A DNA stretch of 44,586 nucleotides from Verrucomicrobiota bacterium (GCA_003218135.1 QHNQ01000024.1:1-44586); one strand, 5' to 3'; counted from the stretch's first letter, positions 3,464-44,494 are shown. The notes: generated from the sequence alone by a model not told the origin. Numbers and translations are program-made.

Positions 3464-3522
3464 AGGAGCGGTTCACCTGAACCGCTCGACTCTCCGGGCG
3501 ATTGCGGTCAATCGCCCCTACC
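3464..3522. repeat. Double-hairpin palindromic element at opcA/GT convergent junction
   Basis: GCGGTTCACCTGAACCGC and GGGCGATTGCGGTCAATCGCCC, ending CCCTACC. Confidence 0.85.
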
Positions 3523-4710
3523 ACTAGGAAGCAGCGCGCACAGTTCGCGCACATTTTTTTCAACCGAAAATAGCTCCTGTGCACGCTGATGCCCGGCTTC
3601 ACCGAGCCTTTGCGCTAACAAACGGTCATCAATCACGTCTTCGATCGCTTTGGCCAGTGCAATTGGATCGCCTGGTTGTACGAGAAAACCTGTTTCATTT
3701 TGTACCACCATCTCGGGGATCCCAGCGATGTTGGTCGAGATGACCGGTAAGCCTGTCGCCATCGCTTCCATGATGACGGTTGGAAGGTTGTCCATCCCTC
3801 CCTCGGGATCGAGCACACTCGGCAATACGAAAACGCTCGCCGCGGCAAGATGCTGGCGGACTTCGCGCTGCGGTTTCGTTCCGGATAACACAAGGCGATT
3901 TTGCAGATTCAGCTGGGCGATTTGCGCGCGCAATTCATTCTCCAGCGGGCCTTCGCCGATGATTTCGCATCGAAACAATTTTCCGCGATCAGCAAGCAAG
4001 GCGCAGGCGCGAATCAGCTCGGCAAATCCTTTTTTCGCGATCAAGCGACCGACTGCAATGATCAAAGGCGGAGTAGAGGAAAAATCAGCTCGCTCGAATT
4101 CTGCGAGATCCAGGCCATTGTAAATACGGTGGACGCTATCCGCGGGTTGTGGAAAACGCTCTCGCAAAAATTGCGCAGCATAATTCGTCTCGGTGACAAT
4201 TACGCGCGCTGCATCGACGAGTTTATCGAGTCCAATCTCAAAATGGCCCGGCGCGAAAATATCGTTGGCGTGCGCGGTAAAGCTAAACGTCATCGGAAAA
4301 AATCTGTGCATCCAGAAAGCGGTGCGCGCAGCCATTCCCGCGAAATGTGCATGAACGTGGCGGACGCCCAATTCCTGCAAGCGCAACCCGACATAAACAG
4401 CCTGATAAAGCCGAAGAAAATCGGTGCGCCGACCCCAGTCATCGAGTGCAGCAACAATTTCGGGCGTGAGCTTTCGCTTTTTTGAAGCGCTCCGAACGTC
4501 GTTCAGCAATTCTTTTTCCTCGGGGACATAATGCACGCGCTCGATAATGCGTGGGTCCCACTCCTGTGGCGGCTCATCTTTTGGATTGCGGATCGAGAAA
4601 ATCGGCGACGCAACGCCTTGTCGATCAAGCTCCGCAACTTCGCGGTAACAAAACGTTTGTCCGAATGAGGGGAACCGTTCGAAGAGATAAGCGAAGTTGG
4701 CCATCGGCAC
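3508..4710 (-). CDS. Glycosyltransferase family 4 (GT-B)
   Basis: HVHAHFAG, IAVGRLIAKKGFAELI, EGGMDNLPTVIMEAMATGLPVISTNIAGIPE. Confidence 0.93.
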   Translation of the reverse strand: MPMANFAYLFERFPSFGQTFCYREVAELDRQGVASPIFSIRNPKDEPPQEWDPRIIERVHYVPEEKELLNDVRSASKKRKLTPEIVAALDDWGRRTDFLRLYQAVYVGLRLQELGVRHVHAHFAGMAARTAFWMHRFFPMTFSFTAHANDIFAPGHFEIGLDKLVDAARVIVTETNYAAQFLRERFPQPADSVHRIYNGLDLAEFERADFSSTPPLIIAVGRLIAKKGFAELIRACALLADRGKLFRCEIIGEGPLENELRAQIAQLNLQNRLVLSGTKPQREVRQHLAAASVFVLPSVLDPEGGMDNLPTVIMEAMATGLPVISTNIAGIPEMVVQNETGFLVQPGDPIALAKAIEDVIDDRLLAQRLGEAGHQRAQELFSVEKNVRELCALLPSGRGD

Positions 4711-4844
4711 GAATTACCGAGCATCCGCCAAATGACAAAGCACGAATGACGATGACAGAAATCCCAAAGACGGATGCAATGAACGTCTCGTCGTTTCGGC
4801 TTCGAGTTTTTCTTCGAGCTTCGGCATTCGTGCTTCGTGATTTT

Positions 4845-5231
4845 CTAGGCACTTTCGCGCTTTGCTGGAATCGGTTTACCGAATTCATCAACAGCCACCA
4901 GAGTGAAGACGCCGTGTGTAACGCGACGCTCTTCGCCCGTCATGTAACGTGTGACCCAAACCTCGACTGGAATGGTCATTGATGTCCGGCCGATTTTTTC
5001 CACTCGCGCATAACACCTGACGGTGTCCCCTACCCTCACAGGTTCGAGAAACGACATCCCTTCCATCGCCACGGTAACAACACGCGCCTGCGCAGTTTTC
5101 GCTGCGAGAATTCCGCTCCCAAGGTCCATTTGCGACGTCAACCAACCGCCGAAGATATCACCGTTGGGATTTGTGTCCTTCGGCATGGCAATCGTTTGAA
5201 TCACCAGCTCGCCTCTGGGTTGGTCGGGCAT
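4845..5231 (-). CDS. Acyl-CoA thioesterase (hot-dog fold, YciA-like)
   Basis: MPKDTNPNGDIFGGWLTSQMDLGSGILA...RVVTVAMEGMSFLEPVRVGD. Confidence 0.9.
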   Translation of the reverse strand: MPDQPRGELVIQTIAMPKDTNPNGDIFGGWLTSQMDLGSGILAAKTAQARVVTVAMEGMSFLEPVRVGDTVRCYARVEKIGRTSMTIPVEVWVTRYMTGEERRVTHGVFTLVAVDEFGKPIPAKRESA

Positions 5232-5240
5232 GAGGTCTTT

Positions 5241-42035: not shown

Positions 42036-42122
42036 TAAGCGTCGTTAAATCGTTAAAAGCTTAAATCGTCAAATGGTGTTTCGCCTGGCGGGTTTGTAAT
42101 TTTTAACTCTTTTAACGATTTC
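42036..42122. repeat. Inverted word-repeat element (GTTAAATC)
   Basis: GTCGTTAAATCGTTAAAAGCTTAAATCGTCAAATGG ... TTTTTAACTCTTTTAACGATTTC. Confidence 0.75.
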
Positions 42123-42149
42123 ACCGCAGGAGCCCTTCGCGCTACCCGC

Positions 42150-42488
42150 TCACAGCGCCTCCATTCCCCGTTCACCGGTTCGAATGCGCACGGCTTCTTC
42201 GACTTCGGTCAGAAAGATTTTGCCATCGCCGATTTTTCCAGTCTTGGCGGCGCCCAGGATCGCTTCCACCGCTTTTTGCGCACGATCATCCGCGACGACT
42301 ATCTCGAATTTTGTTTTTGGAAGGAAATCCACCGTATACTCGGTGCCGCGATAAATCTCGCTGTGCCCCTTTTGGCGGCCAAATCCTTTGACTTCGCTCA
42401 GAGTCATCCCTTCAACGCCCGCTGCCATTAACGCTTCTTTCACCGGCTCGGTCTTGAATGGCTTGATGATGGCCTCGATTTTCTTCAC
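42150..42488 (-). CDS. glnB: P-II family nitrogen regulatory protein
   Basis: [32 protein letters not shown] (T-loop Tyr retained), [23 protein letters not shown]. Confidence 0.96.
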
Positions 42489-42643
42489 CGCGCCACATTA
42501 AAAACTGACCTCTCAAATGGCAAGCATCGCGTTGTGCTGCGTGCTGGAGTGTCCGCTGTCTCAGCGGAGCTCAGCGGAAGCGGAGATAATAGCGATATTG
42601 CGCCGAGGACAGGAAGTAGCCTGAGAATCTCTTTCGCGCGGCA

Positions 42644-44494
42644 TTACACCTTCCGTCCGAATTTTTTCTCTAGTTCACTCAGTGAAATCTGGATCATCGT
42701 TGGCCGGCCGTGCGGGCAACAGTACGGCAAATCGCAGTCGAGCAAATCGCGAATAAGTTTTTCAACTTCAGGGTAACGCAGCGGATCATTAGCCTTAACG
42801 GCGTGGCGGCAAACGCTTTTGGCGATCATCTCTTCGCCCAAACGCATCGCTGAAGTGTTGTTGCCAGCGCTGTTTAGATCGTCAATTACCTTCCGCATGA
42901 ATTGCCCCGGGTCCGAGACGTTCAAAAAGCTCGGCACAGCGTCGATTTTAAAAGTGTTAGGCCCAAAGCTCTCAATCCCGATTCCCATCCTTTGCAAAAC
43001 CGATAAGTTCCTCTCGATCCAATCCGCGTCGCGCGGCGGCACATTGAAAGTCTGCGGTAGCAGCAGCTTTTGCGTCGGGACCCCCTGCTCTTCCATTCTC
43101 CGCCGCAATTCTTCGAAGAGGATACGTTCATGCGCTGCATGTTGATCAACCAGGACAAGGCCGTCCGCATTCTCCATCAACACATATAGCTTATTCAGGA
43201 CACCGATGATCTGGAATTCATGCTGAGCGGCTCTCTTGGCGCGTTGTTCCCGCTGTAGGGCAGGCGCATCGCCTGGCGATTTAAACTGTTCCGGCAGGCG
43301 AGGCGCCTGCCCTATAACGTCCAAGCCTCGTGCCCGCCCCGAGCCGACGCCTCCGCCTACCGTTGAACTAACATAAGGTAACTCACGATGTAACTCCTCA
43401 GGAGCAATTACCTCGGGTCGTAGTCTCAGGTCAGGAGCCGTTTTTGTGGCATCACCAGGTGCCATCGTAGGTGGTGCCCGAAATCTTTCCTGCCATGCCG
43501 CCCTGCCTGCTTCCAGCGTTTCATGAATGCACCGAGCGATCGCTTCCCGGACCGCGGTCGGATCACGAAAACGCACTTCACGTTTTGCCGGATGAACATT
43601 TACATCGACACCCCCCGGGTCGAGCTCAAGAAACAGAAACGTAACCGGATACTGCCCTTTCATTAGAGCGGTATGGTAGCCTTCGCGAATAGCAGCAGTA
43701 ATGAGGCTGCTTTCAATCGCGCGGCCGTTCACAAACACAAGCTGTTGCGCGCGGGTTTGACGGCTCAGACCTGCCTGTCCAATGAAACCACTGATTCGGA
43801 CACTGAGTGAAAGAGTGCCGGTTACTTCAACGAGGCGCTGCACTAGCTCAACTCCATACAGATCGCGGATCCGATCAGTGAGTATTGCCGCAGCCGGCAA
43901 CTGAAATAACATGCGGTCGTCTCGCAACAGCGAAAAGGCCGTGTGAGAATGGCCTATGGCCTGCAAATGAATCTGATGCTCGATGTTACGGCTTTCAGTA
44001 CTTTCAGAACGAAGAAATTTCCGGCGCGCGGGCAGGTTATAAAAAAGCGAGCGCACCTCGACTTGCGTTCCAGGCGCTTCACCGCCGTCACGCACAACGT
44101 CAAGCTTGCCGCCATTAACGACAATTTCGGTGCCTGCGATCGCGTGAGGCTCGCGCGAAGTTAGGCGAAATCGCGAGACGCTGGCGATGCTTGGCAAGGC
44201 TTCGCCGCGAAATCCCAGCGTGGCCACCGCTTCAAGATCAGCAGCAGACCGGATCTTGCTCGTGGCATGCCGCTCCAGGGAAAGCAGCGCGTCATCGCGA
44301 TCCATGCCGCAGCCGTCATCGATTACGCGAATCAACGAAATTCCCCCGCGACGAATGATGATGTCGATTTTGCGCGCGCCGGCGTCGATGCTGTTCTCGA
44401 CCAGTTCCTTCACCACTGACGCCGGGCGCTCCACGACTTCGCCGGCAGCTACCTGGCTGGCTACCGTCTCAGACAACAATCGAATCTGACCCAT
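42644..44494 (-). CDS. mutL: DNA mismatch repair protein MutL
   Basis: VASQVAAGEVVERPASVVKELVENSIDAGA; DQHAAHERILFE and CPHGRP motifs; carries an in-frame repeat element. Confidence 0.96.
   Translation of the reverse strand: MGQIRLLSETVASQVAAGEVVERPASVVKELVENSIDAGARKIDIIIRRGGISLIRVIDDGCGMDRDDALLSLERHATSKIRSAADLEAVATLGFRGEALPSIASVSRFRLTSREPHAIAGTEIVVNGGKLDVVRDGGEAPGTQVEVRSLFYNLPARRKFLRSESTESRNIEHQIHLQAIGHSHTAFSLLRDDRMLFQLPAAAILTDRIRDLYGVELVQRLVEVTGTLSLSVRISGFIGQAGLSRQTRAQQLVFVNGRAIESSLITAAIREGYHTALMKGQYPVTFLFLELDPGGVDVNVHPAKREVRFRDPTAVREAIARCIHETLEAGRAAWQERFRAPPTMAPGDATKTAPDLRLRPEVIAPEELHRELPYVSSTVGGGVGSGRARGLDVIGQAPRLPEQFKSPGDAPALQREQRAKRAAQHEFQIIGVLNKLYVLMENADGLVLVDQHAAHERILFEELRRRMEEQGVPTQKLLLPQTFNVPPRDADWIERNLSVLQRMGIGIESFGPNTFKIDAVPSFLNVSDPGQFMRKVIDDLNSAGNNTSAMRLGEEMIAKSVCRHAVKANDPLRYPEVEKLIRDLLDCDLPYCCPHGRPTMIQISLSELEKKFGRKV
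43254..43316. repeat. GTAGGG double-hairpin element, in frame inside mutL
   Basis: TGTAGGGCAGGCGCATCGCCTGGCG ... CCGGCAGGCGAGGCGCCTGCCCTATA. Confidence 0.9.

Follow-up and report, generated by a model that had tools for sequence, protein, structure and literature searches.

The window (the whole stretch of 44,586 nucleotides analysed here) corresponds to contig C177 in the draft genome of a Verrucomicrobiota bacterium (2.75 Mb, 214 contigs, 86.65% complete; G000 below). When GTAG/CTAC ends and hairpin criteria are applied together, 11–12 hairpin doublets are found in it. They measure 49–106 bp, mostly 49–60 bp. The first-pass annotation had reported at least ten loci with GTAG ends and paired hairpins between positions 3464 and 43316. 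Both the number and the coordinates are borne out, and all the hairpin cores it named are present, as members of families F1–F4. Its length of about 50–60 bp holds for most doublets, but not for the full range. The elements are as follows; a strand is assigned only to the single hairpin, and the family numbers are our own.

3466–3521: F4 REP doublet, GAGCGGTTC and GGGCGATTG, with a degraded left foot; lies between convergent genes
5661–5709: F1 REP doublet, GGCAGGCG and degenerate GGGAAGCG/GGCAAGTG, within queA and in its reading frame (ORF 5407–6474, minus strand)
10174–10223: F2 REP doublet, GGACGCCG and GGTCGGCG, within a HemW-like radical SAM ORF and in its reading frame (9976–11172, plus strand)
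11205–11262: F3b REP doublet, CGGTGCTTG and AGGCGTTTG
18217–18270: F3 REP doublet, GGCGTTTC and GGCGTCTG
20926–20982: F3 REP doublet, between convergent genes
22570–22595, plus strand: single F10 REP, GGCGTCC with CGCCGCGG tip
24471–24521: F3b REP doublet, GGTGCTTG and AGGCGTTTG; right end degenerate (right foot CCACA)
26316–26383: F5 REP doublet, TCCGCTG and GTGCGCTG
26679–26743: F5 REP pair, hairpin feet facing each other
30902–31007: nested composite of four hairpins, an outer F6 pair (CACAGCC and CACAGGC) enclosing GGCAGGCG and CAACACGC hairpins
36919–36968: F2 REP doublet, between convergent genes
43254–43316: degenerate F1 REP doublet, in frame within the mutL linker region (ORF 42644–44575, minus strand)

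Other palindromes are also present in the window. Adjoining the start of queA (6473–6953) are two perfectly matching inverted arms of 224 bp, separated by 33 nt; this repeat is either genuine or a product of the assembly. Two imperfect inverted repeats, at 12730–12811 and 13270–13361, have GTCATCCTGAGCGAAG / TCATTCTAAGCGAAGCG arms. Inserts of the form TCATCCTGA...GGAATGAC near the orthologous site of the 10174 doublet in sister genomes (L235, L236, and L241) resemble them, so these repeats look like another dispersed palindrome family. An inverted repeat at 15541–15621, ACCACGAAGATCACAGAGG...CTTCGTGGT, is built of CACGAAG units, and one at 31718–31797, TGATACTGGATTCTAGATGCTGGATG...CATCCAGCATCAAGTATC, is unlike the GTAG family.

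The pattern GTAGG-N(30–55)-CCTAC occurs five times in the window, against 0.04 expected. Genome-wide, the same ends considered without hairpins show no excess (60 versus 92 in the reversed control), and the bare pattern was dropped as evidence. The genome search for the end pattern proposed in the first-pass annotation is thus significant only when hairpins are included, and it is the hairpins that carry the evidence. In a 1.1 Mb genome sample, a perfect or near-perfect hairpin follows 100 of the 3860 GTAG tetramers (25.9 per 1000). The rate is 0.6–3.5 per 1000 for 20 of 21 control tetramers; the exception, GGTA (7.8 per 1000), overlaps GTAG. As this sample was taken partly from contigs with known matches, a separate count was made on unselected contigs, which gave 40 of 2072 (19.3 per 1000) for GTAG versus 0.2–2.1 for the controls. 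Genome-wide, GTAG is 10–20 times commoner before a hairpin than other tetramers, and extrapolation from the unselected contigs gives about 190 strict hairpins per genome. The copies are therefore neither few nor similar to random hairpins.

These elements share the traits of GTAG-tagged REPs: a 5–13 bp stem with GTAG unpaired at its foot, tens of dispersed copies in each genome (G000 has 24 exact pattern matches for F1 and 13 for F2), and common dimers with outward feet (HH). Perfect stems predominate, and the conserved mismatch bulge of the E. coli-type BIME (group 2 REP) was not seen. Sorted by stem and loop, the hairpins fall into about ten families.

F1: GGCA(GG/AG/AC)CG, variable triloop
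F2: GG(A/T)CNNCGC, loop GCT
F3: GGCGTTTC, GGCGTCTG, and GGCGTTTG; F3b: GGTGCTTG
F4: GGGCGATTG and GGCGGTTC
F5: GTCCGCTG and GTGCGCTG
F6: CACAGNCA
F7: CCGG(G/C)ATC
F8: GGGAAGC
F9: CGCTTCGC and kin
F10: F3-like stems with CGCCGCGGCG tip

Within F1 and F2, compensated changes affect two or three base pairs in the middle of the stem. They can be read only where the search pattern left mid-stem positions free, most others being fixed by it and uninformative; at the free positions, 97.5% of cells are paired versus 86–91% in shuffles, and double changes number 27 and 17 versus 10 and 5. The "changing cores" are thus two layers: coexisting REP families, and compensated mid-stem variation inside families. 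The idea of a single family with recoded stems was rejected, as the families have their own loop and stem sets and seven of them match separate RAYT clades in sister genomes. Recoding in a narrower sense does stand, in the compensated mid-stem pairs inside families and in the core or tip changes seen in place at a few orthologous sites.

Comparison with sister genomes reveals empty sites at two genes. In queA, the F1 doublet lies within 96 extra in-frame nucleotides, where most sister genomes have 7–11 residues. The in-frame F2 doublet of the HemW-like gene is likewise absent from most sister genomes. Intergenic sites show turnover. The gap at 3466 contains related doublets in L264, L266, L267, L274, and L276, of F4 or CCAC type. 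At 18217, an orthologous doublet is seen in L207, and L213 has one in which a single core is swapped; the gap is occupied by other families in L206, L204, L208–L211, L215, and L225. By genome, the 18217 gap contains F3 in G019, F3 with one core swapped in G024, F4 in G006, and the GTAGCCAC type in seven genomes. At 36919, a decayed orthologue remains in L294 and L309, and other families occupy the gap elsewhere; across species, F2, F5, and F9-like types are found there. At the 11205 site, L235 has identical flanks and a nearly identical spacer, and both hairpin tips differ (CGCCGCGGCG versus TGTGTCA). Another doublet, in L312, is mixed. Judging from the kept flanks, the tip difference at 11205 represents an in-place core change, for which conversion from another copy and replacement are candidate mechanisms. 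The differences in presence among sister genomes indicate that the doublets have been mobilised, as had been suggested, mobility being read here from sequence comparison between genomes.

No RAYT is present inside the window itself, in agreement with the first-pass annotation. Besides one IS200-type TnpA, G000 encodes two RAYT-like proteins, both barely over the NCBIfam REP_Tyr_transpos cut-off. One of the two is 80% identical to a protein in a soil Verrucomicrobia MAG, and relatives are nearly all from Verrucomicrobiota. Neither RAYT-like gene is flanked by REP hairpins. An alignment search of G000 with REP-flanked RAYTs returned the same two matches only, with no further fragments at E<=1, and no REP-flanked RAYT was found in this 86.65% complete assembly.

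The genus is rich in RAYTs. Matches were obtained in 33 of 35 same-genus genomes, G000 included, with up to 14 in each, and about 65 RAYTs were retrieved with their flanks. Many matches lie in open frames of 570–1619 codons (e.g., G008:C205, G023:C205, and G030:C269), far beyond RAYT length; these are possibly fusions with large extra domains or chance open frames. Many of the RAYTs retrieved are flanked within about 200 bp by hairpins of the families F1, F2, F3, F4, F7, F8, and F9, all found in the window's genome; the F4 hairpins of 3466–3521, for example, flank RAYTs in L152, L171, L175, and L176. RAYTs in related genomes are thus flanked by REPs of the same family, which, with the enrichment of GTAG hairpins, supports the earlier comparison with REP/BIME doublets. 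On a quick tree of 65 RAYTs with 27 weakly supported inner branches, and with four automatic family labels set by hand beforehand, the seven flanking families on 34 tips require six changes, which is the minimum; shuffled labels require 21.5 on average and at least 17. F1, F2, F3, F4, F7, F8, and F9 each have a cognate RAYT clade in the genus. No RAYT partner was found for F5 and F6. The two RAYTs of G000 are placed outside every REP-flanked clade, on long branches. L002-type RAYTs, examined in a wider set of named genomes, have few REPs nearby and none of the window's families, and are not likely the mobiliser.

In the 86.65% complete draft of G000, no cognate RAYT was found for any of these seven families. 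The REPs of this genome appear to be orphans, or else to depend on genes absent from the assembly. This absence rests on a 214-contig draft, and repeats break assemblies; the missing 13%, fragmented at repeats, could hide some RAYTs. Because G000 has the highest exact F1 count among the 35 genomes (24), the loss of RAYT, if real, may be recent.

Very probably, the elements of the window are GTAG-tagged REP doublets, non-autonomous mini-elements of a REP/RAYT system in a genus where many RAYT lineages were gained and lost, and the copies are mostly relics or reliant on unassembled genes. Extrapolating from published work, the RAYT, a single-strand HUH-tyrosine transposase, would recognise the 5' GTAG foot together with the hairpin, and would copy the doublet, on single-stranded DNA, to other locations. 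From the same literature, a given RAYT lineage is expected to recognise its own set of stems and loops, which fits the match of clade and family computed here. If the genus carried many RAYT lineages that were gained and lost over time, the presence of several REP families side by side in one genome would follow. The suggestion that most copies are relics, or else rely on genes in the 13% not assembled, comes from the lack of a detectable cognate RAYT in the genome of the window.

Could the hairpins act mainly on RNA, as bidirectional terminators or stabilisers of mRNA 3' ends, kept for function and not mobile? The doublets at 3466, 20926, and 36919 do lie between convergent genes, right after stop codons. 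However, the sequences seen contain no T-run after the hairpins, three doublets are in frame inside genes, both presence and family vary among sister genomes, and the same hairpins lie beside transposase genes, all of which makes this explanation very unlikely. It is still harder to credit that the doublets are MITE-like IS200/IS605 derivatives moved by the ordinary TnpA of their own genome. That genome does have one IS200-type TnpA, on contig C174, and this contig (L119) carries an F4 doublet; but the C174 protein scores 77 bits as IS200 versus 21 bits as RAYT, and it is the RAYT trees that match the REP families.

The two hairpins of a REP doublet are rarely identical. After removal of identical sequences, none of 23 perfect F2 doublets is homodimeric versus 5.2 expected (p = 0.0008, re-pairing), and two of 33 F1 doublets are versus 10.8 expected (p = 0.0001, re-pairing); jointly, there are two identical-hairpin doublets in 56 versus 16 expected. 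These p-values are too small, as they assume independence while doublets are copied as units. Among all families, none of 38 strict doublets is homodimeric, a set which overlaps the F1 and F2 sets and is too small per family for significance alone. Folding with DNA parameters predicts one long hairpin with paired feet for all 154 virtual homodimers, with a gain of 12.6–14.6 kcal/mol on average over two separate hairpins. For natural doublets, the feet are predicted to be free in 46 of 77 and paired in 31 (10 of 35 in F2 and 21 of 42 in F1).

The preference for heterodimers has been published with no obvious explanation, and palindrome clearance was suggested (PMC3733652). GTAG is essential for binding and cutting by the E. 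coli TnpAREP, while the enzymes of S. maltophilia and Marinomonas tolerate GTAG mutations better (PMC8266576). Taking the heterodimer rule, the folding predictions, and the published role of GTAG together, it can be hypothesized that mixed hairpins of the same family would favour, on single-stranded DNA, two separate hairpins whose GTAG feet stay unpaired, as folding predicts, and that selection might act for this form. In its full form, the proposal is that the REP doublets of the genus are obligate heterodimers since the RAYT needs both GTAG feet single-stranded, the compensated differences preventing a long hairpin that hides the feet, and that cores are exchangeable in place at orthologous sites with flanks and spacer kept, so that core exchange, and not slow drift, could give rise to new REP types. 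We regard it as speculative and rather unlikely as a whole.

A founder effect, in which a few mixed founding doublets were copied as units, has somewhat less than an even chance of accounting for the excess by itself. In REPINs it is the whole doublet that is copied (PMC3116915), and identical spacers recur, as in G000:C26 and G034:C50; on the other hand, the three main F1 types are found in all three mixed combinations and the F2 types in seven, and the rule is seen in every family with doublets. It is also conceivable, though somewhat doubtful, that long perfect palindromes were cleared by SbcCD cleavage or replication slippage (cf. PMC3733652) and that transposase recognition played no part. 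The instability of palindromes is known, and the greater predicted stability of the virtual homodimers is in line with clearance, but the same excess is predicted if hidden feet hinder the RAYT. If true, the sequestration of feet would explain the heterodimer preference and would challenge the long hairpin as the working form of the REP doublet.

The 35 genomes of one genus, with up to 14 RAYT matches per genome and seven matched REP/RAYT pairs, represent a compact natural data set. It can be used for testing REP–RAYT co-evolution, RAYT loss, REP decay, and the published heterodimer preference, and, being clean, it bears on two points in particular, that preference and the in-place change of cores.

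GTAG REPs, genomes with multiple families, REP-specific RAYTs, intragenic copies, and orphan REPs are already published (PMC3733652, PMC6006769, PMC3686654). GTAG-tagged REP families were reported by Di Nocera et al. (2013, PMC3733652) from genomes including the verrucomicrobium Opitutus terrae, the richest in intragenic GTAG REPs. The elements described here resemble them in the unpaired GTAG foot, the perfect 8–9 bp stem with a 3–4 nt loop, the predominance of outward-foot dimers, the presence of several families per genome, the heterodimer preference, and the in-frame intragenic copies, DNA-repair genes included. They differ in that many families are present in one genome, the heterodimer rule is nearly absolute, and the cognate RAYTs were not found in the window's genome. 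REPINs (Bertels and Rainey 2011, PMC3116915), whose definition has the doublet fold as a single long hairpin, are similar in having an inverted REP doublet as the unit and an association with RAYT, whereas most F2 and half of the F1 doublets here are predicted to form two separate hairpins. The loss of RAYT leaves orphan REPs (Nunvar et al. 2013, PMC3686654), of which the persistence of REP classes whose RAYT is kept by relatives only is reminiscent, although here several families are affected at once, in a draft genome. Of the features of REPtrons and TnpAREP subclasses (PMC6006769, PMC8266576), bulged stems of the E. coli type are absent here. The genus shares with them RAYTs with their own REP type in the flanks and the GTAG foot, and L140 contains a same-family REP hairpin inside the RAYT reading frame, as published for one TnpAREP subclass.
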